This document shows positions 34,833-59,805 of a stretch of 64,000 bases of DNA, in pieces (the first letter of the stretch is position 1; every line of letters starts with the position of its first letter). The stretch lies in assembly GCA_903833595.1 (NCBI GenBank), contig CAILFU010000147.1, positions 1 through 64,000 of the forward strand. The letters run 5' to 3'. The notes beneath the pieces were generated by a model that saw only the letters and a list, made by a program, of their open reading frames with translations, was not told where the DNA came from and did no database searches. The translations under genes were made by a program, and so were the position numbers. The DNA comes from an uncultured Pseudomonadota bacterium (GTDB lineage Bacteria > Pseudomonadota > Gammaproteobacteria > Burkholderiales > Methylophilaceae).

Positions 34833-35416
34833 ATATCAACCTTACCAACCTGATTTCCCCACTCAACCTCAACAAAATTCATTATCTGCTCAGAATTTTT
34901 AATATCAATATGATTTTTAGCTTTTATATATGCATACAAAATCTTAGATACCACCTCACCAGATTCTAAACTCACTGATTTAAAAATTTTATGTTTTGAA
35001 TTTAAAACAATATGATGTTTGTTGCCCTCGTGAATGTAATTAAAGAACTTTGTTCCAGGCCATTCTGCAACACTATGCGTCACATTCCAGGACGAATCTA
35101 ATGAAGCCCTTCTAGCATTTTGCTCTAGCAGGCGAGACCTGTTATTTAATTCTGAAGGATTTAGATCGTCTTTAAAGAAACTTACAATCCGTTCTGACTG
35201 TGTTGTAAACAACTCATAAATCTCAACAAACTCATCCTCCTTCAGCCAGATTCCCTTGCTACTTGGTTTAGTTTCGCCGGTTGCTTTGTCAAAATAATGC
35301 TTACGAATGTCGACACCACGCATTCCATTAAAGAAACTTAACGTTACTACTAAGGGGGATTTAGGATCGCCAGACCTTAATAACTCTATATTCGAATTGT
35401 CAGGTTCTGTACTCAA
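34829..35416 (-). CDS. hypothetical protein of the SspFGH-like module
   Basis: 195 residues, no recognised family. Four-base overlaps with both neighbours show tight coupling to the GHKL ATPase and helicase genes. The central part (WNVTHSVAEWPGTKFFNYIHEGNKHHIVLN) suggests a mixed alpha/beta domain. Function is inferred only from membership in the module. Confidence 0.6.
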   Translation of the reverse strand: MSTEPDNSNIELLRSGDPKSPLVVTLSFFNGMRGVDIRKHYFDKATGETKPSSKGIWLKEDEFVEIYELFTTQSERIVSFFKDDLNPSELNNRSRLLEQNARRASLDSSWNVTHSVAEWPGTKFFNYIHEGNKHHIVLNSKHKIFKSVSLESGEVVSKILYAYIKAKNHIDIKNSEQIMNFVEVEWGNQVGKVDI

Positions 35417-37164
35417 TTGACTGCCAAGTCCTTATCTAGCTCGTTAATCCACGATGTTATATAACTACTTAAAAAAGAACCCCAATTAGTGATCACTTCA
35501 TCTCTAAACTGACTACCAGGCAAACTTTGGTCTAGGTGAATCATAGATATGGATTTGCCGAATGCCATAAATATAATATCAGTCAGTGCTACCAATCTAA
35601 TTGCATTTGCCTCTAGATTGATGCCATCACTAACTTCCTCTTGAATAGTTCTCAAAGTACTAATTAATTTATGTCGAGTGTTATAAATTAATAAATCGGA
35701 TCCGCCCATATGGCTAATGTCCATAAAGTTTACTCCAGGCCAACTACCATCCTTAATGCTAAAAGGTTGCTGCTTAAACCTTTCTTTCCATATTTCTTGC
35801 TGGGCCGCATCACCATCTGCTGCATTTTTTGCTGCCTGATCCATTGCAGACTCTTCATCACCAGGCTTTACGGCTTTGCCGGTAGGTAACCTTGTTCTTT
35901 TTGCAATCTCTTCGCCAATGTGGTGCCCTGAACCGCCTATAGGATCTAGCGGACCTGGTGTTGACTTGGCAGCCCAAAACTCAGATATTAACTCACGCTG
36001 CTGCCTTATCCATGGCTTGATCTTCTCACCAATCAATCTTTTTAGTTCCTGATTAGGCACTGCCCCCCTTTTGATATTCTTTACAGTAAAAGCTCTATCT
36101 AACTCTGGCTCAAATGAGATTTCACAACCCCAGAAACGATCTAATTCTCTTGGTTGAAAGTTCCAATGCGGTATCCAGTCGTAGCCAACTTCTCGTCCAT
36201 GCCTAAGCAAACTAATGCCTTCATTTCTGTCAATATTTCTATCTAATGCATGTGACTTAGAACCGGCTCCCTGCTCTTTACGCCATTCCTCAGGAAGCAA
36301 ACTTAAGCGAATTTTTATAGTCGAATTTTTTTTGCCTAGCAGCTTCTCTACCTCAGGATCAAGAATGGGGTAATTGATAATTATCGAGTCATATTCTTTA
36401 GATACAGAATCACTAGTAAATTGAGTTTTTGCGGTATTTACATACAATGGGTCTATAGCATATACGAGCTTTCCATCAAGAGTAATATCGACAGGCCCAA
36501 TTTCCCTAATCGGGTCTTTATTCATTGGGTTTGTATTCCAAATATAATGCCTGAAAACCCTGCCTATATATACCCTAAACTCATCAACAATTTTTTGACG
36601 CTTGTCAGGCTCTCTGTCATATTTTGACCAAACAACGATAGTCCCCTTGCCTACAGGAATTAATTTTTCATCCACAATGCCGTTCGGAGATTGTTTGACA
36701 GGAGGCGGTATTTTCCATGAATTATTCCCGTCTTTACTATCTTTACTCTTTATCTCGTCTAAATCGAGATAGGTATACTCCCATTCACCTCCCGCAGTTT
36801 TTGAATACACGTCAACACGCCTGCATTCATGGATTGCGCCTTTAGTCATACCAACTCCAAAGCGCCCAATTCCTGTTCTATCATTGAATCTACTAGAGTA
36901 GCCTAGCCTTAGGCATCTTTGAAGAACATAAGTCTCCATGCCTGTGCCATTATCTGAGAATGTAACTTTATTTATTGTATTACCAGTAGATGGCTCAAAC
37001 TTAATATTAATGGCAGTAGCGTCGGCTTGGATAGAGTTATCAATTGCCTCTGAATAAGCGCTATAGCAATCAAAATCTGAATCACGATCCGATTCTAAGG
37101 ATTGGTATATAGAAATAACACCAACGCCATCTTCATCACCCTCTAACACTCTACTATTGCTCAA
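35413..37164 (-). CDS. GHKL (HSP90/MutL-like) ATPase of the SspFGH-like module
   Basis: 583 residues from TTG 37164, with GGGGAG six bases upstream. The Bergerat ATP fold is clear: SEAIDNSIQADATAI (N box), FSDNGTGMETY (G1) and GIGRFGVGMTKGAI (G2 lid). The C-terminal half is unassigned. Related GHKL ATPases occur in several antiphage systems. It overlaps the next gene and follows the PLD gene by 53 bases. Confidence 0.75.
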   Translation of the reverse strand: MSNSRVLEGDEDGVGVISIYQSLESDRDSDFDCYSAYSEAIDNSIQADATAINIKFEPSTGNTINKVTFSDNGTGMETYVLQRCLRLGYSSRFNDRTGIGRFGVGMTKGAIHECRRVDVYSKTAGGEWEYTYLDLDEIKSKDSKDGNNSWKIPPPVKQSPNGIVDEKLIPVGKGTIVVWSKYDREPDKRQKIVDEFRVYIGRVFRHYIWNTNPMNKDPIREIGPVDITLDGKLVYAIDPLYVNTAKTQFTSDSVSKEYDSIIINYPILDPEVEKLLGKKNSTIKIRLSLLPEEWRKEQGAGSKSHALDRNIDRNEGISLLRHGREVGYDWIPHWNFQPRELDRFWGCEISFEPELDRAFTVKNIKRGAVPNQELKRLIGEKIKPWIRQQRELISEFWAAKSTPGPLDPIGGSGHHIGEEIAKRTRLPTGKAVKPGDEESAMDQAAKNAADGDAAQQEIWKERFKQQPFSIKDGSWPGVNFMDISHMGGSDLLIYNTRHKLISTLRTIQEEVSDGINLEANAIRLVALTDIIFMAFGKSISMIHLDQSLPGSQFRDEVITNWGSFLSSYITSWINELDKDLAVN

Positions 37165-37217
37165 AATACTCCCCTTTAAAAAAAGTTTTTACTAATTCAA
37201 TTCTCATTATCATTAAT

Positions 37218-38204
37218 CTAAATTACTTTCGTTACTCTTTGAGAGTGATTCGGTCTGTCTATGGTTACAAAATCTTTAGCAAACTCCTCCGACCAATCCA
37301 ACAAATTCTGTAACAACCCCTTAATATCTTTTCTATATGGCACTGGATCGTCAATAATATCATCGTGTAACATCCCGGTTAATTCTCCAAAATAGAAATA
37401 TCCTGGACCGTTGTTAAATTTCTGGATTAACCATAAAAAAGATTTTGACCTTAAAAATCTACTTTTTACAAGCTCACTGTCTAGCTTCTCAATGTCAGTT
37501 AGACCTAGTAATGACATATCATGTATTAACTCCAAAGTAGCGGGAGCGGCATGAGAAATTTCTGAGTATCTTAAATGAAACATCTCATCTACAATCAAAC
37601 CATCAACTTTCTGTTCTTTGGTCAAAAAATTCAAAATTTCATCTGGCCACGATGGGTTAGCATTTTTAATCTTTTTATTTAATTCAAATGCATCTTTCAT
37701 TAAAATGAATTTTTTGTCATCAATTTCAGTCGCATTTACAAAAAGATTGTCCACAAAGTTATTATTAACTTGGCTCTTCTGAGTAGTTACGCAAACTTCT
37801 CCGTTCTTATTTTGCTTTAAAGCAAATCCAGCACAAGTTAAATTTGCGCTACCAATTAGTATACCAGCAGGGTCAACACTATAAACCTTTCCATGAAAGT
37901 CCTGATTAACATAAAACCTTAACCCATTTTTTTTAGCGAACTCATAACTCTCTAAATCAGAAGATCCTGTCAATAAATCTGTTAACTGCCATCTAGCTAA
38001 AAGTCTTAACGGCCCAGAGAAGCCATTATGGCAAAAAGATTCATAAAAAAATCTAAGGGACCCTACTGTAATAAATGCGCTGCAAAAATCTACACTCTGT
38101 GTTTCATTAGAAACTGAATCGAGCAACCATTTCTTTGACTTTTCAGAATCAATCAAAATGCCATCATTGTTATTCGACGTAGTACTTGTAATTAAGTTAT
38201 TCAA
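37218..38204 (-). CDS. phospholipase D-like (HKD) protein
   Basis: 328 residues, probably from TTG 38204. One HKD-type motif is visible: FHGKVYSVDPAGILIGSANLT near residues 98-118. A single motif implies an active site formed by a dimer, as in Nuc-like and BfiI nucleases. Position between the membrane-WYL gene and the GHKL ATPase, 53 bases from each, suggests it is part of the same operon and perhaps the nuclease of the module. The C-terminal ~150 residues are unassigned. Confidence 0.68.
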   Translation of the reverse strand: MNNLITSTTSNNNDGILIDSEKSKKWLLDSVSNETQSVDFCSAFITVGSLRFFYESFCHNGFSGPLRLLARWQLTDLLTGSSDLESYEFAKKNGLRFYVNQDFHGKVYSVDPAGILIGSANLTCAGFALKQNKNGEVCVTTQKSQVNNNFVDNLFVNATEIDDKKFILMKDAFELNKKIKNANPSWPDEILNFLTKEQKVDGLIVDEMFHLRYSEISHAAPATLELIHDMSLLGLTDIEKLDSELVKSRFLRSKSFLWLIQKFNNGPGYFYFGELTGMLHDDIIDDPVPYRKDIKGLLQNLLDWSEEFAKDFVTIDRPNHSQRVTKVI

Positions 38205-38257
38205 AGAAAAATAGCTCCCATTGATTTCTATAAGCCTACATCTATTTACATTTCAAT

Positions 38258-38632
38258 TTACAACAAATCCAGCTCAATTATTCTGTCAACAATAAAAGTT
38301 CTTTTTTCTCTTCTAAGATGACAATATGAAGACAATGCCAATTCACCACTACCTTCTGTCAGGAATAACTGCTTAGGAGTAATAGTACGAGTTGTTACCC
38401 TACCTTCCAAATCCTTGTAACTAATTTTAAGTCGGGATTCAGCTCCTATTGCCCTTTTAATGACTGATTGAAATTCATTGGCAGCCGTCAGTTCAGCTGA
38501 CTGCCTTCTTATCGGACTAGGTGTATATGATTTATTATTAGTAAGGCCCGAATTTTTATTCGATAACTCAGTATCAAGCCACTTAAAAACAAGGAAACAT
38601 ATAAAGCCAATAATAAAAAGTATCTCCACCAA
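38258..38632 (-). CDS. membrane-anchored WYL-domain protein without HTH
   Basis: 124 residues from GTG 38632 (AGGGG upstream). Residues ~3-18 are a membrane helix (EILFIIGFICFLVFKW); after a linker, residues ~58-122 match a WYL fold (RLKISYKDLEGRVTTRTITPKQL...LSSYCHLRREKRTFIVDRI). There is no DNA-binding domain. First gene of the operon with PLD, GHKL ATPase, the 195-residue protein and the helicase, and driven by palindrome site 7. It may sense a nucleic-acid ligand at the membrane; that is inference. Confidence 0.6.
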   Translation of the reverse strand: MVEILFIIGFICFLVFKWLDTELSNKNSGLTNNKSYTPSPIRRQSAELTAANEFQSVIKRAIGAESRLKISYKDLEGRVTTRTITPKQLFLTEGSGELALSSYCHLRREKRTFIVDRIIELDLL

Positions 38633-38733
38633 TTACCCCTAAACAACTTTGTAAAACTAACCACCATTTAGTTAAATGAGATTCGACTAAGATTCAATTC
38701 ATTTTGACATATTTCTCGCTGTTTATCATAAAA

Positions 38734-38765
38734 ATTATAGATTACCCCAAGCTCACAGAGTGAGG
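38734..38765 (-). promoter_or_regulatory. palindrome promoter, site 7 (restriction-arm operon)
   Basis: GCTCACAGAGTGAGG (38751-38765), then 11 bases, then TATAAT (38734-38739) on the minus strand, about 100 bases before the membrane-WYL gene. No terminator-like hairpin separates the five following genes. Confidence 0.7.
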
Positions 38766-38874
38766 CTTATCTCATATTGGATAAAAATACTATGTGGTCA
38801 GAGAGTCTTTTTTAGAAACACTAATATATATACCAAAAGCCGCCTGTGCATAACTGCAGATTGAATATTAGAGA

Positions 38875-41800
38875 CTAGCCGTTTGTATATTCTCTCAGCC
38901 AGCACAGCGTATTAACCAAACCCATCTGTGCAGGTGATGTGCAATCAGTCTCTAGTAGCTTAGGATTAGCTATCACAATAGCCAATGAACGAGCTCTTGA
39001 AACAGCAACATTAAGCCGATTCTTGTTATACAAAAACTCCATATTACGTGGCAGATATTCACTATTAGACGTAGTCATAGAGACAATTACCACCTCCGCC
39101 TCTAGCCCTTGGAATTTATCAACCGTACCTACTTCAATGCCTGCCGGCAAATAACTTTTAATTGTCTTTACCTGCGCGTTGTAAGGTGCCACGACTAGTA
39201 TGTTGTGGGCTGTTATTGGATGAGTTTCGCCTTTGTTGTTTTGATACTCTTGTTGAAGTAAGTTAGTCACTATGTCTTTAATGATTTGGGCCTCTTCCCT
39301 TGAGATTTGAGCGCATTCATCATGATCTACTTCAAAGAATGTAATTCCTGTTGGCTTTAATGCTGGGTGAGAGCCTTCCTTAAGCACAAGCTTTTGAATT
39401 GAATTTTTCTGTTGTGCAAATAACTTGCTTTCGTATACCGCGTCTGAAATAAAACGACACACGTCCGGATGCATCCGCCAGGTGACCCCTAGAAAAACAC
39501 CTCGCTCTGGTGGAATTGTGGCAAGCCCCCCCAATAGGTATTCAAGGGCAGATTTACCAGACTCATTTGGGTGTGTTCCTTGCAGTGGCTGACCAAGTTG
39601 CATGTGGTCGCCAAGCAATATGATATTTTTTGCACAGACACCAATAACAATTAGGCTTGCTAGTGATACCTGCCCAGCTTCATCCACAAACAGATAGTCA
39701 AATGCTTGATCCGCCATTTCGTTTGCAAGGGCCCAAGCTGTGCCACCTACTAGCTGGTAAGCCCCATCATAGACATCTTCGGTATTGTTGTTCTGAATAA
39801 TAGACCCCGCCATACCATCTGGACCATCCGAGCCTTTTTTTACTCCACGAAATGTGAAATTTTGTTCAATAGCCACTTCTTCTACTGCATTGAGTAAATT
39901 GACAATTGCCTTATGGCTGTTGGCACTGACTGCAACCCGCTTTCCTGCCTTCAGAAGCGATACAATAGCCTGCGAGCCTGTATAGGTCTTGCCTGCTCCC
40001 GGTGGCCCTTGAATAAATAAATAACTGTTATCTAATGCGTGAATAAGCTTAATCGCCGCATCTCCTGCCTCTTGTCCATCTTCAACAATAGGCTTGCCTT
40101 GGCTTTTTCCTGTGATAGCGGGGAAATCTCTGTGTAAAAAAGCAGTTAATGCCTGATAGTTGGGCTGTCTAGCTATTTGGCTATCCACATAACGGACCAA
40201 AGCTGCTTGCAATACTTTTTTATCTACATATTTACTAGCTGCAATCGATAAAGATGTTGGGGGATTGCCATTCCATTCTTTCATTGCAGATGGTCCAACT
40301 TTAATTTTCACCAAGTAGGCGTCTTGACTAAAGCTGACCACCTTGCCGATATTCATTAATGTTTCAGCATCTTGGCAGGCATCATCAACTAAAATTCTGT
40401 GGTCTTGCTCTGGATAGCGATAGGTAACAATAAATGACCGAGCTTCGGACACAACAGGATGAGTAATATCTAGCGTTAAGCCTGCTAGACAATCTAGATC
40501 CTCTAACAAATCCTCCAAGTCTTTTTCTTTGCGATCATACATTTTCCAGAATGTCGGCTTATCTTCCCGGCGGTAGAAATCAAGAAGATCAAATAGCAAC
40601 TGGCGTACATTATTTTCTTTGGTTCGAAGTGCAAAATCTTCTGGCAACGGCTGCACTAAGGCTAAACGGTAACGCTCACGGGCGGCTTCTATTTCAGCGA
40701 TTTTTGCTTTCTTCTCCAAATCAACTTCTTCTACCTGTTCAAAGTTCGGGTCATACCAAGGCATATCCTTAGCTCGTAAATCTAAAAGCCAGTCATGAAG
40801 TAATTTGGTTGATCGGCAATCTTCTTCATTGTATTGGCGTATTTGCTCTAAGGTATTGGGATCTTGTGTTTTCTTCCAGGCCTCATAGTAAATAATACTG
40901 GCCCCCGCATTTTTAACATCAGCTGAGCGCTCACCCTTCATGTAAAAGGTTTCTAAATTCTTGATGGAGTAGCGAGGTTCAGATGTAAGTATGGCATGGC
41001 GTACGACAGCGAATAGGTCCACCAGCTTTTGCGACCTGAGTAAGTTGTCCACTTGAGCCTCGCGCGTACCATGCAAGCCCATTAGGCTTTGCAATGCACG
41101 ACGTTCGTAATCAGCATAATGATAGATATGCAAGTCAGGATATAGGGCAATACGGCCTGATACAAAGTCGATAAAGTCCTCAAAGGCTTTTTTCTCTTCT
41201 TGACGCGTATGTGCCCAGAATGGTTTGAATACTAACTCCCCACCATCTAAGTAACTTACCCCGAAAAGATATTCAAGCCCACCCTCTTCCATCGGGTTGC
41301 CTTCCATATCAAAATAAAGGTCACCTTCGTTTGGCTTGGGTAACCGATGAAATCCAAGGCGCTTCTCCTCCTGGAGATCTTTAAGCTGAACAATATCCTC
41401 GCCCTCTAAGCGTTTTTTAAGCTGCAACCAAGCTTGCCGCCAGAGCGTTTCTTGTGTGCCAAGTTTAGCGATAGGATTTGTGGCGGGGTCACCTAATTCA
41501 GCCAGCTGAGTGAGGGTTGTTATCCCACTAGCCTTTAGTCGCTTTATATCGTTTTTTCGGATATTAGCTACCCGATTGAGATGATCATCAGCTTCCCATT
41601 GCGTGTCGCACAAGGTGCGAAATTGGCAAAGGTCACAGTGTGAGCATTTCTCAGGATAGCTCGCTTGCTTTTGTGGTGCATAGTTTAAAAAGCGTTGTTT
41701 GGCGTGGTTCACATAATGCAAATAATCCGCGAGTCTAAATGACTCAGTCGCGTGATTACCCATTACCAAATGAGTCATACTAGGCATTATCCCTTGTACC

Positions 41801-42270
41801 TCAGCGAGCATGGATGAATACAGCCCTACCTGCATCAAGTGTCGGGCTTTAGGGTGTGTAGATAACTTGGTGTCAGCCACTTCATAGCTCCAACTACCTA
41901 GCTTTGAAGGGACTGGGACTTTAGAAAGAAAATCTGATATTCCGTAAAAAGGTAACTGCAACAGTGCGGCTTGGTAGATGACATCATCCCCTTGATACAT
42001 CGCTTCTATTGAGGCTTCGACCTGCTCAGTTCTCTTCAGATTTTTAACATCTATACTAGCAATACTTTTACCTTGAGCGCGTAAAGTTTCAAGATATGAA
42101 GCTTCATGTTCAAAGCCTTTGTCTTGTAGTAGCTTAGTTTGCTCGTCAGCCTCGTCTTTTTGTAAGGGTGTATCTAAGTCAATCCGCTTAAGGTTGATTA
42201 AATGCTTACACAACAAAAAGTCACCTAAATCACTCGCCGAGTAAAGGAGTCCGTCATTGGATTTCTGCAT
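38875..42270 (-). CDS. TM0106-type RecB-like nuclease fused to SF1 helicase
   Basis: 1131 residues. N-terminal ~240: Cas4/RecB-like nuclease (GISDFLSKV...YEVADTKLS...QVGLYS) with an iron-sulphur-type cysteine set (CSHCDLCQFRTLC). ~310-500: RNase H-like exonuclease region (LYFDMEGNP, IYHYADYERRAL, YNEEDCRST). C-terminal ~450: UPF1/Dna2-type helicase with QGPPGAGKT, VDEAGQ, GDHMQLGQP and NRLNVAVSRAR. All motifs look intact. It starts 74 bases after the Sel1 gene and is likely cotranscribed from site 8. A DNA-processing or defence role is likely. Confidence 0.85.
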   Translation of the reverse strand: MQKSNDGLLYSASDLGDFLLCKHLINLKRIDLDTPLQKDEADEQTKLLQDKGFEHEASYLETLRAQGKSIASIDVKNLKRTEQVEASIEAMYQGDDVIYQAALLQLPFYGISDFLSKVPVPSKLGSWSYEVADTKLSTHPKARHLMQVGLYSSMLAEVQGIMPSMTHLVMGNHATESFRLADYLHYVNHAKQRFLNYAPQKQASYPEKCSHCDLCQFRTLCDTQWEADDHLNRVANIRKNDIKRLKASGITTLTQLAELGDPATNPIAKLGTQETLWRQAWLQLKKRLEGEDIVQLKDLQEEKRLGFHRLPKPNEGDLYFDMEGNPMEEGGLEYLFGVSYLDGGELVFKPFWAHTRQEEKKAFEDFIDFVSGRIALYPDLHIYHYADYERRALQSLMGLHGTREAQVDNLLRSQKLVDLFAVVRHAILTSEPRYSIKNLETFYMKGERSADVKNAGASIIYYEAWKKTQDPNTLEQIRQYNEEDCRSTKLLHDWLLDLRAKDMPWYDPNFEQVEEVDLEKKAKIAEIEAARERYRLALVQPLPEDFALRTKENNVRQLLFDLLDFYRREDKPTFWKMYDRKEKDLEDLLEDLDCLAGLTLDITHPVVSEARSFIVTYRYPEQDHRILVDDACQDAETLMNIGKVVSFSQDAYLVKIKVGPSAMKEWNGNPPTSLSIAASKYVDKKVLQAALVRYVDSQIARQPNYQALTAFLHRDFPAITGKSQGKPIVEDGQEAGDAAIKLIHALDNSYLFIQGPPGAGKTYTGSQAIVSLLKAGKRVAVSANSHKAIVNLLNAVEEVAIEQNFTFRGVKKGSDGPDGMAGSIIQNNNTEDVYDGAYQLVGGTAWALANEMADQAFDYLFVDEAGQVSLASLIVIGVCAKNIILLGDHMQLGQPLQGTHPNESGKSALEYLLGGLATIPPERGVFLGVTWRMHPDVCRFISDAVYESKLFAQQKNSIQKLVLKEGSHPALKPTGITFFEVDHDECAQISREEAQIIKDIVTNLLQQEYQNNKGETHPITAHNILVVAPYNAQVKTIKSYLPAGIEVGTVDKFQGLEAEVVIVSMTTSNSEYLPRNMEFLYNKNRLNVAVSRARSLAIVIANPKLLETDCTSPAQMGLVNTLCWLREYTNG

Positions 42271-44418: not shown

Positions 44419-45024
44419 TTATTCGATAAAGTGCTTAATGGCACGCACGCACAAAATAACAGCGACCCAGATCAGCGTTAGTTGAATTGCGCTCAGCGAA
44501 CCAGGTTTAGTCTTAGACTCGTCTTTTTTTGGAAAGGCTAACTCAGGTTCAGGCTGTACAGAAACAACCAACTGAGCCCCCTTCGCTATGGCATTCGCCA
44601 GTGGGTTCATCCCCCAAGGCGCAACTCCATGATTGGGCAGGGGTCCACCACGACCTAAGTCATTTGCCATTGCAGCCTCAATAATCTGCTTCCAGTACTT
44701 GGTGCGTAGCGACGCACGCCCAGTTCTAAGCTTTTCTTCAATGCGCTTAACGTCATCCCCAATAAAATCCTCAGGAAAGTCACTTTGTATGCGAATAGCA
44801 GCACGCAGAAGTGTGGGGTTGGGAATCTTGTGCACCAATTGCTCACTTTCTTTAAGCTCAAGTAGCAATCGTCTATAGCGTAAATCAGGTTTTTCATCCT
44901 TAGCTTGTGTCTGCTTAATCAAGGCCAACTTATCTGGTGATGGGAAGTCTGGATCGTCATCTACTATTATTAGTAGGCGATCAATGCATCGGCGAAAAGC
45001 AGCGCTAAAATAGTTATTGGTCAT
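44419..45024 (-). CDS. hypothetical tail-anchored protein
   Basis: 201 residues from ATG 45024 (AAGGA seven bases upstream; the ORF track starts ten codons earlier). Soluble, charged N-terminal ~170 residues followed by a C-terminal hydrophobic segment (SAIQLTLIWVAVILCVRAIKHF). It overlaps the end of the HDAC-like gene, so the two are coupled. Function unknown. Confidence 0.55.
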   Translation of the reverse strand: MTNNYFSAAFRRCIDRLLIIVDDDPDFPSPDKLALIKQTQAKDEKPDLRYRRLLLELKESEQLVHKIPNPTLLRAAIRIQSDFPEDFIGDDVKRIEEKLRTGRASLRTKYWKQIIEAAMANDLGRGGPLPNHGVAPWGMNPLANAIAKGAQLVVSVQPEPELAFPKKDESKTKPGSLSAIQLTLIWVAVILCVRAIKHFIE

Positions 45025-45880
45025 GGCCATATCCTTTGTTATCGCCATAAACATCCCAGCACGTGCGTAGGGTGTTGTCGTGGATATCTAAAACAGCACG
45101 GAAGTCATACTGGTAACCACCAGCTAAATCCCAAGCAATTGGGATACCTAAAGCTTTAGCCGACTCAAACACAAGATGATCTCGCTCAGCGAGTTGAACT
45201 GTGGTGAGCCACCCGCCTAACGGGTCTGCTACATGAGGGTCTGCCCCTGCTTGGTACAGAATGAGACCACAGTCAGAAAATCTAGCGACCAACTCAGGAA
45301 TGCGTTGCAGAAACTTTTTTGCTTGTGATGCTTCCCTGTAGTCTTTACCAGCACTGAATTGACTCAGCCAATCCCCTAGATTGAGCGTTGAGATGATGCT
45401 TGCAGTGCCATCACCATAATGCTCATCGAAATCTAAGATGCCGACCTTTTTAACCAAGCCTTCTTTCTTTAATACTTGGGCAGCAACAACTAGACCATTG
45501 AAGGTACAGAATCCACTAGCTTGCTTGTAGCTAGCGTGATGAAAGCCTGACACGGGGGCAACAGCGACTTGGCCGTTGCGGAGTGCTTCGCGTGCCGCAC
45601 TGACAATCGCACCACAGGTATAAGGCAGAGAGTCTGCAATGGAAGGTAGCTTGTTGCCAAAGCCATTGTTGGTGCGACACGCTAGCACCTTCTCTACGAA
45701 AGTCCTGTCATGCGCCAAGCTCAGCTCATCTACCGTAACTGGAATAGGTTCACGAATGTCGAGCGGTATACCAAGCGCTTGCCAAGACTTAACGGCTAGT
45801 TCTGGCTTGCCTGCACTTGGGCTAGCGCTATAGTTAATAGCCACAAGTTTGGGGGAATAAAACACGGGAATACTATTCAT
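45014..45880 (-). CDS. histone deacetylase-family hydrolase
   Basis: 288 residues. VSGFHHASYKQASGFCTFNG (the tandem histidines), ILDFDEHYGDGTASI (metal ligands) and YQAGADPHVADPLGG are HDAC/acetylpolyamine amidohydrolase motifs. The zinc site looks complete. The substrate could be an acetylated protein, polyamine or small molecule. It heads an operon with the tail-anchored and 56-residue proteins. An HDAC-like enzyme in a genomic island is uncommon. Confidence 0.8.
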   Translation of the reverse strand: MNSIPVFYSPKLVAINYSASPSAGKPELAVKSWQALGIPLDIREPIPVTVDELSLAHDRTFVEKVLACRTNNGFGNKLPSIADSLPYTCGAIVSAAREALRNGQVAVAPVSGFHHASYKQASGFCTFNGLVVAAQVLKKEGLVKKVGILDFDEHYGDGTASIISTLNLGDWLSQFSAGKDYREASQAKKFLQRIPELVARFSDCGLILYQAGADPHVADPLGGWLTTVQLAERDHLVFESAKALGIPIAWDLAGGYQYDFRAVLDIHDNTLRTCWDVYGDNKGYGHDQ

Positions 45881-45997
45881 TTAAGTTCTCCTTTTTAGCG
45901 ATATTTGCCGAAGTGGCGGAGCTCGCAATATGGATCAAAATCTCCGACCGTTTTGCCAATGCCGACTGGTCAAGTCGTGCTGAAACCAGTTAGCCTA

Positions 45998-46150
45998 TTA
46001 CAAGGAATCTAAGTAGTCATCTACTAATGTTTGAATCACTGGAGGTAAGTATGCATACCTAACTTCTGACGTGCTCACCTCGTTTGCAGCAAGCGAATGG
46101 AAGCATACACTTGAGGGGGCTTCATCTCTTTCACGATTAATGTTATTCAT
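45998..46150 (-). CDS. small hypothetical protein, 50 residues
   Basis: Starts at ATG 46150 with GAGGAG eight bases upstream; the longer ORF-track start lies inside the preceding gene. MNNINRERDEAPSSVCFHSL... ends LVDDYLDSL. It overlaps the 216-residue gene by eight bases and is thus translationally coupled and under the same riboswitch candidate. Confidence 0.5.
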   Translation of the reverse strand: MNNINRERDEAPSSVCFHSLAANEVSTSEVRYAYLPPVIQTLVDDYLDSL

Positions 46151-46793
46151 GAACACTCTCCTCTGCATCAACATCATCAAAAACTTCTTCCGACCATACC
46201 TCGTCAGCCCAGGCATTTGCTGTAGCGTTGTCAATTAGGCCTTCGTTGAATAAATATGCCCAACGCTCTTGGTCAAACGTGTTCCTCTGACTTACCCAAG
46301 ACTTAATGATTATTTGCTTGGCAGCTTGAATCGATTCAATGGCACCTTCAATAAAACCAATGGCATGATCTGTACAACCATATGCATCTTTACTGTCGCG
46401 ACTTGCCGTCACAACATGACAATTAAAACTTGGTAAATAAGTGATGTAATAAGCTTCTGGCCAACTAAAGCCTGGCCCAGAATCTGCCCAGTTGATTGTG
46501 CAGACATGTTGCGGATTGAAATTAAGCCTTGCGTCAGGTAATCGAGGCTTAGATAATCGGCCAACCTCTAAATCACCGTCGTCATTGGTGAACCCCCAGT
46601 TAGGAAGATTGTCTTGAATTGGGTTCAAAAGAATTTGAGCTACAGCAACTTCATTGCGGGTAATTTCTATCTCTGTAGGCACCCTTAACGTGTCGTATAC
46701 TTCTTCTAGACTTACGTCAGTTACGCCCCTAATGTAATTGTGCAGGATGCGCACTTCTTCATCAGGAAGCAATTTAAGAATGTTTGCAGTCAT
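46143..46793 (-). CDS. hypothetical protein downstream of SAM-II-like riboswitch
   Basis: 216 residues, not recognised. Acidic, with a central FSWPEAYYITYLPSFNCHVVTASRDS and no membrane segment. ATG follows CTAGGAG. The only visible promoter reading into it carries a SAM-II-like aptamer and a terminator, which suggests expression tied to S-adenosylmethionine level; nothing in the protein itself shows a link to methylation. Confidence 0.6.
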   Translation of the reverse strand: MTANILKLLPDEEVRILHNYIRGVTDVSLEEVYDTLRVPTEIEITRNEVAVAQILLNPIQDNLPNWGFTNDDGDLEVGRLSKPRLPDARLNFNPQHVCTINWADSGPGFSWPEAYYITYLPSFNCHVVTASRDSKDAYGCTDHAIGFIEGAIESIQAAKQIIIKSWVSQRNTFDQERWAYLFNEGLIDNATANAWADEVWSEEVFDDVDAEESVHE

Positions 46794-46880
46794 GTGTTTC
46801 TCCTAGTTTAGCTGTTTTGACAAAATGTCGAGGGCAGCAATTGGGCATAAATCCCCTCAGCGATTAGCGACCGCCAGTCG

Positions 46881-46924
46881 TACAAAAACAAAAAACCCGT
46901 TTCAGCTTAAGCTAAGAACGGGTT
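46881..46924 (-). terminator. intrinsic terminator behind the SAM-II-like aptamer
   Basis: On the minus strand AACCCGTT, a 15-base loop containing TTAGCTTAAGCT, then AACGGGTT and a run of Ts. The loop's TTAGCT is complementary to AGCTAA in the 3' part of the aptamer, which could give a SAM-dependent switch between terminated and read-through RNA. Confidence 0.7.
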
Positions 46925-46928
46925 AGTC

Positions 46929-46983
46929 ACCGAATTTAGCTAGTATTTATTAATCGCCCTGCAATCAGATTCAAATCGGCGAT
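46929..46983 (-). ncRNA. SAM-II-like riboswitch aptamer
   Basis: Minus-strand RNA begins ATCGCC GATTTGAATC, continues GATTGCA GGGCGAT, then AATAAATACTAGCTAAATTC. Stem P1 is ATCGCC/GGCGAT; the conserved SAM-II strings GATTT, TTGCA, TAATAAAT and GCTAAA occur in the right order and spacing, and GAAT in the loop can pair with ATTC after GCTAAA, as the pseudoknot requires. Recognised from memory of the SAM-II consensus; SAM-V is the close alternative. Confidence 0.7.
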
Positions 46984-46989
46984 GTGATT

Positions 46990-47018
46990 ACTATAGTAAA
47001 TCATCATTACTTTGTCAA
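46990..47018 (-). promoter_or_regulatory. consensus sigma70 promoter before the aptamer
   Basis: TTGACA (47013-47018), exactly 17 bases, TATAGT (46990-46995) on the minus strand. The predicted start, about base 46983, coincides with the first base pair of the aptamer. Confidence 0.75.
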
Positions 47019-47101: not shown

Positions 47102-47530
47102 TTACTTTAACAGAATCAACTTGGGGATAGCATCTTTATCTGACCAAATAAGAGCGTTCTGCTCGAATTGAGTACCTAGTTTTTTAGAAGATTCTAGACT
47201 AATCCCCAGCACCAAAAAACTGTCTTCGCCAACCCACTGCAATAAAGGGTCTTGCCCAAATCCATCTATTACCTTAAAACTACGTAAAGTTAATTCATTT
47301 TTTAGCTGTTCATTTCTCAGTTGGTTTTCTTCACTGGAAAGAGACTTACTGTAAGGATTCCAAGCTGTGATGATAGCAGCACTAGCAACTCTATTTCTCT
47401 TAAAAAGCAGCTTAAGTTCTTCGCTTGATTTACTGACGTTTAAAATGAAAGCTGGATCAGCCTTTACGTGAAAATTTGTTATTTCGTAAGCAGACAGCAA
47501 GGCTTGGTCTAATTGACTTTTGAATTCCAT
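47102..47530 (-). CDS. DUF3293-type protein
   Basis: 142 residues. AAIITAWNPYSKSLSSEENQLRNEQLKNEL is the core of DUF3293, a small family of unknown function with a W-N-P motif. Soluble, no signal. Upstream TATAGT at about 47593 may be its -10. The gap to the 47802 gene holds palindrome site 9 reading the other way. Confidence 0.6.
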   Translation of the reverse strand: MEFKSQLDQALLSAYEITNFHVKADPAFILNVSKSSEELKLLFKRNRVASAAIITAWNPYSKSLSSEENQLRNEQLKNELTLRSFKVIDGFGQDPLLQWVGEDSFLVLGISLESSKKLGTQFEQNALIWSDKDAIPKLILLK

Positions 47531-52749: not shown

Positions 52750-53694
52750 ATGGCACATCAAGTCGAAACAATGGCATATAAAGGTCAAACACCATGGCAT
52801 GGCCTTGGTAATCCACTCAGTGACAAGCAACCGCTCGAAGTCTGGCTACGCGAAGCTGGTATGGCTTGGGAGATTCAATCATCTCCCGTGCATTACCTCA
52901 CCGCGCACAGCGCTGAAGTCTATGCAGACGCTAAGGTCCTATTCAGGTCAGATACCGGGGATGCACTCTCAGTAGTCTCTAACAGATATCAAGAAGTGCA
53001 ACCGCGAGAAGTACTCGAGTTCTACCGAGATCTAGTAGATCTAGGCGGCTTCGAGCTTGAGACCGCAGGTGTGCTCAAAGGCGGTAAAAAGTTGTGGGCA
53101 CTAGCCAGAACAGGTGAAGAGATATTGCTTAGAGGCGGTGACTTAGTAAAAGGCTACCTGCTGCTCGCTACTGCGTGCGACGGAAGTCTAGCGACTACAG
53201 CTCAATTCACCTCAGTAAGAGTGGTATGCAATAACACCTTACAAATGGCGACTAGCGATAGCACAGGCGCGATCAAGGTGCCTCACTCAACCAAGTTTGA
53301 TGCTGATAAAGTCAAACAACAACTTGGCATAGGTGCTGGTCACTGGGAACAGTTCATCACTAGCATACGTAGCCTAGCGGATCGACCAGTTCACACGTTT
53401 GAAGCTCGTCGTTATTTGATCGAGGTGTTAGGTGATCCAGCGCTGAGCTTTCATCAACAGCCTAATCTAAAGGTACTGAACCATGTATTCGATTTATATA
53501 TCGGTAGCGGCATGGGTTCCACCATGGCCTCAGCCAATGACACAGCTTGGGGATTAGTCAATTCGGTCACGCAGTACGTAGACCACGAACGACGCGCTAG
53601 GTCCTCAGACAATCGTCTGGACTCAGCGTGGTTCGGGGCTGGAGCAGCTATAAAGCAAAAAGCACTTGATGAAGCATTAACACTCGCAGCCTAA
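52750..53694 (+). CDS. DUF932 phage/plasmid-like protein
   Basis: 314 residues. YKGQTPWHGLGNPLSD, VSNRYQEVQPREVLEFYRDLVD and the VRVVCNNTLQMA stretch are typical of the DUF932/TIGR03299 family found on phages and plasmids, usually near recombination genes. AGGAG precedes the ATG. Activity is not established. Followed by its own terminator. Confidence 0.82.
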   Translation: MAHQVETMAYKGQTPWHGLGNPLSDKQPLEVWLREAGMAWEIQSSPVHYLTAHSAEVYADAKVLFRSDTGDALSVVSNRYQEVQPREVLEFYRDLVDLGGFELETAGVLKGGKKLWALARTGEEILLRGGDLVKGYLLLATACDGSLATTAQFTSVRVVCNNTLQMATSDSTGAIKVPHSTKFDADKVKQQLGIGAGHWEQFITSIRSLADRPVHTFEARRYLIEVLGDPALSFHQQPNLKVLNHVFDLYIGSGMGSTMASANDTAWGLVNSVTQYVDHERRARSSDNRLDSAWFGAGAAIKQKALDEALTLAA

Positions 53695-53739
53695 TTAACT
53701 GTAAGTGGCAGTAAATACCGGTAGTAACAAAAACAGATA

Positions 53740-53775
53740 GCGCCCGATATGGTTCACCCAGTCGGGCGTTGTTGT
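53740..53775 (+). terminator. intrinsic terminator
   Basis: CGCCCGA (53741-53747) pairs with TCGGGCG (53762-53768), followed by TTGTTGT. Closes the DUF932 transcript. Confidence 0.6.
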
Positions 53776-53813
53776 ATCTAACTTATCAATATCAATTAAT
53801 CAAAGGAAATATC

Positions 53814-54482
53814 ATGACAAATACTCCACAACAAAACTACTTCACAGAGTTAGCGAGCATCAATGTGAGCGAACATCTAGAGAAGAAAGGTCAGTTTAAT
53901 TATTTAAGCTGGCCGTATGCAGTACAACAACTTCGCATGTTTGATGAGACCGCGACATGGGTCATTCAACGCTTTAACGGTTTACCGTTTCTACCAACAG
54001 ACTACGGCACCTTCGTAGAAGTGGCCGTCACCGTTAGAGGCGTGACACTGTCACAAATCCACCCTGTGCTGGATAGTAAGAATCGACCCATACTGGCACC
54101 TAGTGCCTTTGATATAAACACCAGCATTCAACGTTGCCTCGTCAAGGCCATCGCATTACATGGTTTAGGGCTTAGCGTATATGCTGGAGAAGATTTGCCG
54201 CATATAGAAAGCGACACAACTCACCCGATACGACCTGTGTCGGGGTTGCAACCTGCGCCATTCGGCAAAGTACGTGAGGCATTAGAGCAGCAACGTCAGA
54301 ACAACGCTGAGCTTCTCACAGCAAACCAACTGCGCTATATCAAAAAGCTGATTGCTGAAACCCATACCAACGAGGAGCAGTTACTCAGCTTTCTAGGATT
54401 ATTCGATTTAGAAAGCATACCGAAGTCAGAAGTTAACCGTGTCATTAAAACACTTGAATCACATAAACAGGAGGCAGCATAA
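53814..54482 (+). CDS. Sak-type single-strand annealing protein (DUF1071)
   Basis: 222 residues from ATG 53814 (AAAGGA six bases upstream). GQFNYLSWPYAVQQL, TDYGTFVEVAVTVRG and AFDINTSIQRCLVKAIALHGLGLSVYAGEDLP match the DUF1071 single-strand annealing family of phages. It would anneal complementary single strands made by the neighbouring YqaJ exonuclease, giving a lambda Red-like pair. Next gene starts two bases after its stop. Confidence 0.78.
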   Translation: MTNTPQQNYFTELASINVSEHLEKKGQFNYLSWPYAVQQLRMFDETATWVIQRFNGLPFLPTDYGTFVEVAVTVRGVTLSQIHPVLDSKNRPILAPSAFDINTSIQRCLVKAIALHGLGLSVYAGEDLPHIESDTTHPIRPVSGLQPAPFGKVREALEQQRQNNAELLTANQLRYIKKLIAETHTNEEQLLSFLGLFDLESIPKSEVNRVIKTLESHKQEAA

Positions 54483-54483
54483 A

Positions 54484-55347
54484 ATGAACACACTATATAA
54501 ATTAGTACAAGGCAGTGCCGAATGGCATGAGCATCGTAAGTTGTACCGCAACGCTAGTGAGACCGCAGCAGTCATGGGAGTTTCACCTTGGATGACGCCT
54601 TACGAGCTATGGCTCGTCAAAACGGGGCATAAAGTAACCATTGAAACGGACGCCATGCGTCACGGTACAGCGACAGAACCCGCCGCGCGAGCGGCGTTTG
54701 AGCAAGAGTCTGGCCTAATTATGCAACCACTAGTGATGGTGGATGGGGACTACTCAGCCAGCTTAGACGGTATCACACTCGCAGGTGATACCGTCGTTGA
54801 GATTAAGTGTCCATATCGAGGCCAGACCAGTGAGCTTTGGCAGACGGTGCATACCGGCAGCGTGCCTGCGCACTATATGCTACAGGTCCAGCATCAGCTC
54901 ATGGTGAGTAAGGCTAAGCACGCTTATTTGTGGGTCTATGATGGCGCTGAGGGAATAGGCATTATCGTTGAACCAGATGCAGATGCCTTCGAGCAGATCA
55001 AGACAGCGTGGGATGCTTTTCAACCTTACCTAGATAACGATACGCCACCACCACTCACCGACCAAGATACGCTAACACGCAGTGATGTGGTATGGCAGCA
55101 AGCTGCAACTGAATATCTAAGCTGTAAGGCTACGTGCGATGAGGTGCAAGCTAAAGCAGACGCAGCTAAGGCTAAGCTCATAGCACTAACTTCTCACAAC
55201 CGCGAAACGGGGTATGGTGTATCGGTAACTCGGTACTGGAAGATTGGTAACGTGGACTACAAAAACGTGCCTGCACTGCAGGGTGTGGACTTGAATGTGT
55301 ACCGTGGCAAGATGCGGGAGGAGGTGAGGGTAACAGTGACTGCGTGA
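54484..55347 (+). CDS. YqaJ-family viral exonuclease
   Basis: 287 residues from ATG 54484 (the ORF track start is inside the preceding gene). GSAEWHEHRKLYRNASETAAVMG, MRHGTATEPAARAAFE and the active site SLDGITLAGDTVVEIKCP with QVQHQLMV are YqaJ/lambda-exonuclease hallmarks. It degrades one strand from duplex ends for recombination, paired with the annealing protein. Confidence 0.88.
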   Translation: MNTLYKLVQGSAEWHEHRKLYRNASETAAVMGVSPWMTPYELWLVKTGHKVTIETDAMRHGTATEPAARAAFEQESGLIMQPLVMVDGDYSASLDGITLAGDTVVEIKCPYRGQTSELWQTVHTGSVPAHYMLQVQHQLMVSKAKHAYLWVYDGAEGIGIIVEPDADAFEQIKTAWDAFQPYLDNDTPPPLTDQDTLTRSDVVWQQAATEYLSCKATCDEVQAKADAAKAKLIALTSHNRETGYGVSVTRYWKIGNVDYKNVPALQGVDLNVYRGKMREEVRVTVTA

Positions 55348-55355
55348 TGTTAATT

Positions 55356-55381
55356 CAGCCAAGGCCATTAGGTCTTGGCTG
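55356..55381. terminator. hairpin between convergent genes
   Basis: CAGCCAAG ... CTTGGCTG without a long T run, in the gap between the exonuclease gene and the convergent 132-residue gene. Possibly a shared terminator. Confidence 0.45.
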
Positions 55382-55447
55382 CCGAGGTGTAACACTATAG
55401 TTCTGTTATAAATATCACTGGCAGACCATTAAATCGTAGGATATTTA

Positions 55448-55846
55448 CTAACCTAAATTGCCAACCCAATTGGCGAGCTCAGATTCAACAGGCCGAACTT
55501 GTTCAGATAAGTATTTAACCTCGCACTTAACTTTAACCTCACCAATTTGAGTAACTAACATATTTAGTGCAGCATCACATCTGCCTACAAGAAATCCATC
55601 AGGGAAGAAGACGCCATATACGGTTGGGGTCAGCCCTTGCAATAAATCTCGAGTCGGATTCAAAACGGCAATACATCTACCAAAACAACCGTCCGCCAGT
55701 ATATTGCCAAGAATATATAGCGGCTTTGATTTTCTCCCTACTTTTATATAGGCGACCATTTCAAAGTCTAATTTATGTTTGTAGCCAGAGCATTCAACCA
55801 TAGCCGTAAATTTTTCTAATGCAATTTCTCTTATTTTATCAAGCAT
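55448..55846 (-). CDS. hypothetical protein
   Basis: 132 residues; AGGAG seven bases before the ATG and an eight-base overlap with the end of the primase-helicase gene. Mixed alpha/beta, soluble; YIKVGRKSKPLYILGNILADGCFG and a C-terminal EVKCEVKYLSEQ are distinctive. No family recognised. Confidence 0.55.
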   Translation of the reverse strand: MLDKIREIALEKFTAMVECSGYKHKLDFEMVAYIKVGRKSKPLYILGNILADGCFGRCIAVLNPTRDLLQGLTPTVYGVFFPDGFLVGRCDAALNMLVTQIGEVKVKCEVKYLSEQVRPVESELANWVGNLG

Positions 55847-58800
55847 GATGAACTCCTAATTTATTGTTGATAGCAGTGTCACAGTTAGGTATAGATGCGT
55901 GTGGTATCCGTGCCAATACTTTTTTTATGGGGATCGTGGGTTTGGTGGGTTTAAACTCAGCAGATTGCTCTCTAGTATGCTGAGTAGAATTTATTTCATA
56001 TTGACCATTATTTAACCCACCAAACCCACTTAACCCCCCAGCAACATCTTCGATCCACCAAGTGGCGACATTTTGTTTGTCTGGTCCTTTGCGAAGGCAT
56101 AATCCATCAACAATCCGATCTTGATGCTTAGCCAGATAGCCACCTAAAGAGCGAGCGTTAACCACGTGCCTAATAGGATCACCTGCAACTTCTACCAACA
56201 AATAACTTAATGCTTCACGATCTTCGTCAGTGCCAAAATCAGGACCGACACCGAAGTTGTGGCTATCCGGTACAGCGTCTTTAACTAACTGCCGAGTGCT
56301 GAATATATTGCCGTGACCATTACCAGCCCCGTTTTTGATCGCAATAGATTTAAGCAAGTGGCCATGTCGTTCGCGGAATGGGTCGTTCTTTACAGCATCG
56401 TTCACGGCCTCCATGGGGTCAACAAGCTCTGGAAAGTAATCACCGTTAGCCGTCTCACCGATAGGAATAAGCTTGCCCTGCTGTTGTTGAGCGAGCCAGC
56501 AGATTGGTTGGCGCACAATATCATCCCAGTCTTCGAAACTTGCCAATCTCCCTGCACCACAACGTTGCGCGTGTGTAGATGATTTATAAGCTCGAATTAG
56601 CGTCAACGCCGAGGCAACTAGCTCTTGGCGATATTCAGTCACCACCTGCACTGGGTCAAACTCAAAGCTGCGTTGATGCGGCGCTTCGTCTTTCGGATCA
56701 ATTCGACACGCCATGATGCGCCGTGGTAAATCGCCATTAAGGGTAAGATTGTTACCTGACAATATCACCATAGAATTACTAGATACTGTCTCAGTCTTTG
56801 ATTTACCAAGTACCCGATCACTGTATTGCTCGCTGGTTAACATAGAAGCAAGTGCAGGTGAATCAAAAGCGCCAACAATATTGTCAATAACGATCACTGC
56901 ATGGCCTTCACGAAGGCAGGAAAATAAGCGCTTACGCATCTCATCATCGGATTTTGCATCTGGTTGCGGAGAAATCGTAGGGGTCTCGCCAGCTAGCGCA
57001 GAAATTAGTTTGGCTAGTAGTGTTTTCCCAGAACCTTGTGTCGGCGAATCAAAGCCAAAGCCCGGTGCAGTCGGGATTATCTTTCGAATCACTGCTGTGA
57101 GCATCGCTGCTAGCATGACGGTCTGGTCTAGTTTGGTGGCAAATGGAAATGAGCGCACCACGTACCAAAGTGCCTTAAGTGATTGACGAACATCATCGAC
57201 CGTAGGGTTTAATATTACAGCTTGAAAGCGCTCTTCATTGGTAATGAAAATGCCACGCTGCTTATCGTATCCCGGTGCTGAAAGAATCTCACCGGTAGAT
57301 GGGCACATACTAGGTGCAGTTAACGTCGCTTTAAGTTGTGGAAAGCTACTTACATGCACATTTTGAATGATTTTTGCATGCTCTATTTTTATATCAGCTG
57401 CTTGCCAGATTTGCTGCTTGAATTCCTCAACGCGAACATTTTGGTCGATACACGCTAGTATTCCATACTCATTGAGAGCAGATAATTTACCCATATCTTG
57501 TATCGTGCTCAACGTTTTACCGCGCGCATAGATTGCACCGCAATCCGTTAAAGCTGAAACAATCTGTGGAATATAAGTACCGCGCTCACCTTTAGCCATG
57601 CGCACAGTATGCAAGTGGCGAGCTAGAAAATAACGTTGGCCACCGTGCGCATAGCTGGCAATATAAGGACGCGCCACACCTAGTAGGCGTGCGCAAGCTA
57701 CGCGATTGTCATCGTGATAATCAGGCTCAAGCGGATCAGAAAAGTGCTTACCGTTCCATTTCGCGGGGTCTGCGAGCACTTCTGCCACCGTTACTAAGGT
57801 ACCATCACTGCATACCAGCTGAAAATCACCTAGCAGTACTTTCCCATCCATTGCGTGGCGAATTGTGCGCTCAGCAACCTCCTGACTTATGCCACTATTC
57901 ACAAGTTGTGAAACTCGTGATTTTATGTAGGCAACTCGAACTGACGCGGCCTCAGTATCTTTTTCTACTTTGGCCTTTGCAACAAGTTTAAGATATTGAT
58001 TTTCTTCAGCATCAGTGAGCTCTGGTAGTGCTATGCTGGTGTTAAGCACCATGCACTGATCCCCCAATAGCAAAGGCTCAGGCTTGCGCGATACTAATGG
58101 CGCTTCACATATAGGCGGTGCGCAGTAATCAATACGATTGGTCTGCCAAACGCTGTCATCCGCAGGGCTACGTAGTAAAAGTGACCCGGCGCGTGAAATC
58201 TTTATACTGCCGTGCCCATTCAACCAAAAGCGCTTGAATAAAACTCTGCCAGCGCGCGGTATATCAACCCCGTGATTAACGATGATATACAGCCGTTGGC
58301 CTTGTATCCCTCTAATCTCTGTATTGTTTGTACTGTCGTACAGGCAAGATGATGTAGATACGCCCCATATGTGCGCGCAATCTTCAAGGTCTTGAATAAT
58401 GGAATAAATCGCAGATAAAAACTCATCTTTTGTAAACGCTTTGCCTACTGTAGGTGGATCATAGTCAATCATAAATACAGCGGGTCCGTCAGGCCATGCC
58501 ATGCAATCTACCGTGCGCGTCATAGCATTTCCTTGTTCAGCAGAAGCATCATAGCGCTTGCGTGATAAGACTCTGGATATGTGGTTATCGCGGGGCACGC
58601 CGTAACTTAAACAGTCGTGTAGGCCGATGTTTTTAAGTAGATTAAGTAGATCTTTTGGTGCGCAGTCTAATTGTTCAACGGAACCAGAACTTAACTGGGC
58701 TGCGGTTGAAGTTTTCTTAACGCTACCGTCTGACTCGAGCGCAAGCTGCTTGGTTACAGGGCTTGATGCAGTCCATTTTGTTAAACGTATATTGCCTTCG

Positions 58801-58865: not shown

Positions 58866-59107
58866 TGCACGCCCCCAGTCTTGCGACTATCTTCAACTTG
58901 TTGTTGAAGCCAGAAGTCAATCTCGTGTTCTAACCAACCCGATGTCCTGCTACCACCTAATTTTATTGGTGCTGGAAACTGGCCTACTTTTGCTTTCGCA
59001 TATATTGCACTTTTGCAAAGACCTGTTTTTTCTTGGACTTTTCTGAGGCGCAGTGCCTGCAAGCCGCTACTAGGGGGAATATTTAAGGGTATTTCGTTAA
59101 TGGTCAT
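58862..59107 (-). CDS. AlpA-family DNA-binding protein
   Basis: 81 residues from ATG 59107 (AAGGA upstream; the ORF track starts ten codons earlier). ALRLRKVQEKTGLCKSAIYAKAKVGQFPAPIKLG followed by GWLEHEIDFWLQQQ is the AlpA/MerR-like winged helix. AlpA proteins often switch on excision or the integrase. Four-base overlap with the primase gene; directly upstream is the integrase-side region. Confidence 0.85.
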   Translation of the reverse strand: MTINEIPLNIPPSSGLQALRLRKVQEKTGLCKSAIYAKAKVGQFPAPIKLGGSRTSGWLEHEIDFWLQQQVEDSRKTGGVQ

Positions 59108-59205
59108 GATTACACATCCTTGTGTGTTGTTGGTCATGTATAACCATTATGTAGAGAGAAAAAAGTGAAGCAACGCTTTATAAAAAATCTCTCACTTTGT
59201 TGCAT

Positions 59206-59757: not shown

Positions 59758-59805
59758 ACAACTCCATATAAATATAGTAGCGTCATAAAAAATAAATAAA
59801 TCAGA

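Follow-up and report, generated by a model that had tools for sequence, protein, structure and literature searches.

The closest described relatives of the RNA analyzed here are the marine bi-mechanism tandems, for which the order SAM-II, terminator, SAM-V has been established (PMC9481103). In the published model, SAM-V blocks the ribosome-binding site when SAM is bound, and the literature has most SAM-II elements acting on transcription (PMC6061858), not on translation as the original prediction for this DNA took to be the norm. In the SAR11 bhmT tandem, the SAM-II part does not respond to SAM in vitro within the full-length RNA, because the linker prevents it (PMC11508383). When about 200 proteobacterial genomes were surveyed in 2014, SAM_alpha, the Rfam SAM-II model (RF00521), was seen in Rhizobiales and Rhodobacterales only, mainly before metY, and betaproteobacterial metK was left without a known regulator (PMC4239095).

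The DNA considered here, referred to as the window, is a stretch of 64,000 nt from an uncultured Methylophilaceae bacterium (contig CAILFU010000147.1). A leader of about 190 nt that lies, on the minus strand, downstream of a DUF3293 gene (47530-47102) and ahead of the gene for a 216-residue protein (46793-46143), is a tandem RNA switch composed of SAM-II, terminator, and SAM-V, and another SAM-V precedes the next main gene. The leader thus has the parts by which the marine tandems are defined, in that a single gene is preceded by SAM-II, then an intrinsic terminator, then a SAM-V that covers its ribosome-binding site (PMC9481103), and it shares their conserved cores. Unlike the SAR11 tandem, the group to which it belongs is mainly betaproteobacterial (with Methyloglobulus), has helices that diverge and Rfam scores under the cut-offs, lies before accessory and mostly uncharacterized genes, and carries a further SAM-V inside the operon. 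The features are as follows.

47102 to 47530, minus strand: DUF3293 protein, directly upstream of the leader (Pfam PF11697, E 7e-23)
46990 to 47018, minus strand: promoter TTGACA-N17-TATAGT, 11 of 12 consensus matches (-35 TTGACA 47018-47013; 17-nt spacer; -10 TATAGT 46995-46990)
46931 to 46985, minus strand: SAM-II-like aptamer (Rfam RF00521 and leave-out HMM)
46983 to 46978 and 46958 to 46953, minus strand: SAM-II P1, ATCGCC/GGCGAT
46977 to 46973, 46964 to 46960, and 46940 to 46935, minus strand: SAM-II core strings GATTT, TTGCA, and GCTAAA
46972 to 46969 and 46935 to 46932, minus strand: possible SAM-II pseudoknot pair, GAAT/ATTC
46884 to 46924, minus strand: intrinsic terminator with 8-bp outer stem and U tract (stem energy, conservation)
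46801 to 46861, minus strand: SAM-V-like aptamer 1 (Rfam RF01826, leave-out HMM, covariation)
46143 to 46793, minus strand: 216-residue protein of a small uncharacterized family (homologues in related loci)
45998 to 46150, minus strand: 50-residue ORF, overlapping the stop of the 216-residue gene
45889 to 45948, minus strand: SAM-V-like aptamer 2 (Rfam RF01826, leave-out HMM)
45014 to 45880, minus strand: HDAC-superfamily deacetylase-like protein, 288 aa (Pfam PF00850, E 3.2e-32)
44419 to 45054, minus strand: 211-residue protein (ORF), overlapping the HDAC-like gene

The 216-residue gene, the 50-residue ORF, the HDAC-like gene, and the 211-residue gene make up an apparent single operon on one strand, in which the 211-residue gene is probably co-transcribed with the HDAC-like gene. 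No homologue of the 50-residue ORF was found, and the 211-residue protein has no family match, including in Pfam. The original prediction had read the promoter, the SAM-II-like strings, and the terminator from the letters, and on these parts of the leader it was correct; it missed SAM-V 1 and the SAM-V before the HDAC-like gene. The promoter is present on the minus strand, and a TTGACA promoter-like site also lies 5′ of the homologous Methyloglobulus leader.

In the SAM-II-like aptamer, P1 surrounds the GATTT...TTGCA loop and is followed by the GCTAAA 3′ strand, an arrangement common to 13 model leaders from other genomes. The possible pseudoknot would be a short helix, of GAAT/ATTC in the window and of GAT/ATC in the congener L236. 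The element scores 18.5 bits with SAM_alpha, below the gathering score of 36 bits, and this score by itself is only suggestive because same-genus genomes give presumed chance matches of 18 to 24 bits. Since the Rfam scores were below cut-off and SAM_alpha scores of this size also occurred in congeners, models were built from other genomes. An HMM of the 13 leaders, with the window and its nearest relative left out, returned a single match in the 64 kb, the proposed site (E = 3.4e-8; next E = 4.7), so the match is not due to chance. The element at the corresponding place in L128 reaches 45.4 bits with RF00521, above the cut-off. With SAM-II the window element has in common P1, the GATTT, TTGCA, GCTAAA core, a terminator output, and possibly the pseudoknot pairing; unlike the SAM-II elements of the 2014 survey, which were restricted to two alphaproteobacterial orders (PMC4239095), it occurs outside those orders. 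Its conserved core bases suggest that the aptamer would bind SAM.

The terminator, AACCCGTT...AACGGGTT at 46924-46894 on the minus strand followed by TTTTTTGTTTTT, has a predicted stem energy of -15.5 kcal/mol and is conserved in L236 and in Methyloglobulus L173, where a U-A pair of the stem is replaced by C-G. The proposed ability of the terminator to pair with the 3′ part of the aptamer also held up, as UUAGCU in the upstream half of the terminator could base-pair with AGCUAA in the 3′ strand of the aptamer. Folding prediction for an RNA ending at UUAGCU gave P1 together with this antiterminator (-16.5 kcal/mol), whereas prediction for the full region gave -27.2 for the terminator against -18.8 for the antiterminator. 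Because the terminator is favored at equilibrium by approximately 8 kcal/mol, read-through in the absence of ligand would have to be kinetic. Antiterminator complementarity averaged 5.75 over 12 leaders, compared with 3.76 after shuffling, and compensatory changes were observed (e.g., AGCUAA/UUAGCU, UGCUAAA/UUUAGCA, and GCGGCU/AGCCGC); good pairing was absent in three of the 12. A short hairpin, CGACTGGCGGTCG (46880-46868, minus strand), lies between the terminator and SAM-V 1 and is kept in L173 and L236 (ACGACT.GC.GTCG).

The two SAM-V-like aptamers score 26.3 bits (SAM-V 1) and 29.8 bits (SAM-V 2) with RF01826, both below the gathering score of 41 bits, and the same model found nothing outside the window above 21.2 bits in 52 same-genus genomes. 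An HMM built from 74 distinct sites, with the window and Methyloglobulus left out, recovered SAM-V 2 at E 2.2e-11 and SAM-V 1 at E 7.6e-11 (next E 2), and neither the leave-out SAM-II nor the leave-out SAM-V model gave a further significant match in the window. On the refuting condition named by the original prediction, lack of a significant covariance-model score, the results divide: all three elements are below the Rfam cut-offs, whereas lineage-specific models are significant (E 3e-8, 8e-11, and 2e-11). By Rfam's own score, the window copies are non-members. Absence of SAM-V from the window's own genome was also rejected: that a search there at E 0.001 found none is explained solely by the poor fit of the Rfam model to this subgroup.

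The subgroup has the H-type pseudoknot of SAM-V (RF01826), with P1, P2, and P3 and a 3′ end that overlaps the Shine-Dalgarno sequence, and all three helices covary. It departs from typical SAM-V in its mostly GC-rich, covarying P1, its GGATTTNATCC-like segment, and its mostly betaproteobacterial distribution. The two window copies already differ in helix sequence, with GAGGG/CCCTC versus CGGAG/CTCCG for P1 and GCTG/CAGC versus GCGA/TCGC for P2; P1 of SAM-V 1 is shifted by one nucleotide relative to the others. Across five sequences, P1, P2, and P3 were 88% paired, and the covariation was 0.508, compared with 0.222 after shuffling and no more than 0.167 after sliding. Thirty sequences, aligned by fitting to the P2 and P3 of the model with P1 outside it, had P2 and P3 99.5% paired and a covariation of 0.554, compared with 0.176 after shuffling and no more than 0.068 after sliding. 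In the metY SAM-V crystal structure, U8, U9, U10, U20, U47, A48, and A50 contact SAM or form the pocket (PMC6061858), and these bases are present in both window SAM-Vs; those that contact SAM are also kept in nearly all of the 30 matches, in which CUAAA is invariant and UUG constant; the loop between the third strand and P2 is variable. The AGGAG Shine-Dalgarno sequences of the 216-residue gene (46804-46800) and of the HDAC-like gene (45892-45888) overlap the 3′ ends of SAM-V 1 and SAM-V 2, respectively, and the start codon follows AGGAG by 5 to 8 nt in most of 81 SAM-V sites. Homology, covariation, conserved contact bases, and gene associations are all computational observations, and SAM binding by the SAM-V-like aptamers is suggested by the conserved contact bases together with the metK targets described below.

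When 399 genomes from the window's GTDB order were sampled, a SAM-V model (R2) matched 31 of them; a sample of 369 genomes of the class gave only one match outside that order. Scanning the GTDB species genomes with an exact pattern returned 88 stretches, mainly from Burkholderiales and other betaproteobacteria, with Methyloglobulus and a few spirochaetes, although some of the other MAG labels among them may reflect misassigned contigs. Matches to the SAM-V pattern in spirochaete MAGs (L139, L181, and L201) precede unrelated genes and suggest that the SAM-V group reaches beyond the proteobacteria. A strict SAM-V pattern had no match in viral contigs. The leader of Methyloglobulus L173 is 87% identical to that of the window, and there the order is SAM-II, terminator, SAM-V, a 124-residue gene, SAM-V, and an HDAC-like gene (72% identical); in L236, SAM-II, terminator, and SAM-V lie directly 5′ of the HDAC-like gene (68% identical), and a gene that reads as IstB-like adjoins the operon. 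Similar tandems occur at L079/L115, L116, L124, L127, and L128.

Several further sites were seen in passing. On the same Methyloglobulus contig (L212, 6035-7876), a SAM-V lies 5′ of a 613-residue protein, a MetK fusion that is extended at its C terminus by some 220 residues; an HD-domain hydrolase-like gene follows, and in L078/L134, too, the SAM-V operon has a similar HD hydrolase behind it. A Methylophilaceae genome (AH-273-G03) has two SAM-V sites 267 nt apart, each 5′ of a different 62-residue orphan ORF (L151). A canonical SAM-V of 59 bits, above the cut-off, was found within the same order (L077, genome G054), with a metY-like gene on one side and a DUF485-like/fatty acid desaturase pair on the other, and is an element of the SAR11 type in this lineage.

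The genes behind these elements are for the most part poorly characterized. Among the 81 SAM-V sites, metK lies downstream in 23, a family of short proteins (~70-120 residues) in 14, and the 216-residue family in four (L158 at 47% identity; L167, L171, and L180 at about 23-24%); behind some of the other sites lie MoxR-type ATPases, SNF2-like helicases, or TY-chaperone proteins. Further homologues of the 216-residue protein are found behind a SAM-V in L136 and within the operon of L128, and genome G097 has a 216-family gene without a detectable SAM-V, so the association is not universal. A close DUF3293 relative stands just upstream in about 37 of the 81 sites, and SAM-I/IV riboswitches (RF01725), whose fold is unrelated, lie upstream of DUF3293 in many of these operons: nine of 13 loci scanned have one above the Rfam cut-off on the same strand, some hundreds of nt upstream, with additional cases elsewhere. 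The recurrent companions of the SAM-V group are thus DUF3293, extra metK, small orphan genes, and upstream SAM-I/IV riboswitches. Polaromonas naphthalenivorans CJ2 has SAM-I/IV, DUF3293, SAM-V, a small ORF, and a YbjN gene on its plasmid pPNAP04. The window itself has no SAM-I/IV match at the Rfam cut-off, and no SAM riboswitch was seen upstream of its own DUF3293 gene. Multiple metK copies were present in nine of 10 genomes checked, and the lower-scoring copies, attributed by contig and score, fit the SAM-V-linked type.

The original prediction called the target an unrecognized protein in a mobile island, and the unusual target is upheld. The 216-residue protein has no match in Pfam, NCBIfam, or PDB and none in IMG/VR, phages, plasmids, or PHROGs, and its AlphaFold model (moderate, mean pLDDT 64) gave no fold match. 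The gene is missing from all 60 sampled relatives, and HDAC-like relatives are plentiful in viral contigs and huge-phage records; accessory status of the operons is thus likely, and so, we infer, is their mobility. HDAC-like relatives were present in 51 viral contigs; 13 of these loci showed no SAM riboswitch at the Rfam gathering threshold, which would also miss this subgroup, and inspection by eye of the 90 nt 5′ of the match found no such leader. In two IMG/VR contigs (L026 and L027), viral HDAC-like genes are followed by a ThyX-type thymidylate synthase-like gene.

Elsewhere in the window, the minus strand at 33180-42270 encodes a ResIII/DEAD helicase, a MORC-like ATPase (MzaB-like), a PLD-domain protein, a WYL protein, and a large MkoA-like helicase-nuclease, a cluster that looks like a defense island adjoining the riboswitch operon. 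An integrated mobile element would fit the genes at 52750-61200, which encode a DUF932 protein, a Sak-type single-strand annealing protein, and, at 59806-61200, a tyrosine integrase.

We consider it highly probable that the tandem works as a bi-mechanism OFF switch through which SAM represses accessory, probably mobile, operons at both the transcriptional and the translational level. At high SAM, the SAM-II aptamer would bind its ligand and hold the 3′ strand GCUAAA in the pseudoknot, so that the terminator forms and transcription stops; in transcripts that escape, SAM-V 1 with SAM would hide the Shine-Dalgarno sequence of the 216-residue gene, and SAM-V 2 would likewise hide that of the HDAC-like gene. 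At low SAM, AGCUAA of the aptamer would pair with UUAGCU of the terminator upstream half, and the operon would be transcribed and translated. The original prediction anticipated a transcriptional output, and the terminator agrees with this; because a SAM-V covers the ribosome-binding site, output is predicted at both levels, and because a second SAM-V precedes the HDAC-like gene, the 216-residue and HDAC-like genes would each have their own translational gate. The window operon would then be one of the mainly betaproteobacterial accessory operons, carrying DUF3293, extra metK, 216-family, HDAC-like, and small orphan genes, that are predicted to be ON in SAM shortage.

It is possible, though rather unlikely, that the SAM-V elements alone sense SAM and that the SAM-II part and terminator form an attenuator that is constitutive or otherwise controlled. 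Because the SAM-II part of the SAR11 bhmT tandem is unresponsive in the full-length RNA (PMC11508383), the SAM-II half in the window may also be silent; it has the weakest Rfam score among the three window elements, and ligand-free equilibrium folding prefers the terminator. Nevertheless, the SAM-II core bases and the antiterminator complement are kept in several genomes with compensatory changes, and the related L128 element exceeds the Rfam cut-off. We regard as improbable a shift in aptamer specificity, away from SAM and toward a different adenosyl or sulfonium compound. Such a change would fit targets in the window that are not methionine-pathway genes, sequences below the Rfam score for both families, and the variable loop between the third strand and P2, but the known SAM-contact bases are retained, metK lies behind the same group in 23 of 81 sites, and the operons are shared with SAM-I/IV riboswitches. 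A chance likeness to SAM-II strings beside an ordinary terminator, to which the sub-cut-off Rfam scores and the 18- to 24-bit SAM_alpha matches in congeners might point, is ruled out by the leave-out models, the covariation, and the conservation of the whole leader before homologous genes.

The locus belongs to a divergent group of SAM-II/SAM-V tandems and SAM-V elements that is mainly betaproteobacterial, has new targets, and is apparently undescribed. The literature searched, which included few subscription journals, yielded no report of SAM-V in betaproteobacteria and no mention of DUF3293. The architecture is already known from SAR11; what appears to be new is the lineage, the targets, and the sequence group with its sub-threshold scores. 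The Rfam models score the betaproteobacterial subgroup below their cut-offs.

The finding extends SAM-II and SAM-V, hitherto associated mainly with methionine and SAM metabolism, to a large betaproteobacterial set of accessory genes of uncharacterized function. Three structurally different classes, SAM-I/IV, SAM-II, and SAM-V, are found on the same kinds of operon, including some with extra metK, which suggests that the uncharacterized target proteins respond to SAM supply and offers a concrete starting point for work on DUF3293, the 216-residue family, and the HDAC-like enzymes associated with phages. We speculate, as an unlikely reading, that the operons are a mobile stress response to SAM loss, for instance when a phage SAM lyase, an enzyme known from phages (PMC7877911), destroys the SAM of the cell. 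A spare SAM synthetase and effectors (HDAC-like, 216-family, and DUF3293 proteins, helicases, and MoxR ATPases) might conceivably, if doubtfully, stay silent until SAM drops, which fits the extra metK and the OFF logic. If so, the riboswitches would be depletion or infection sensors of mobile elements.
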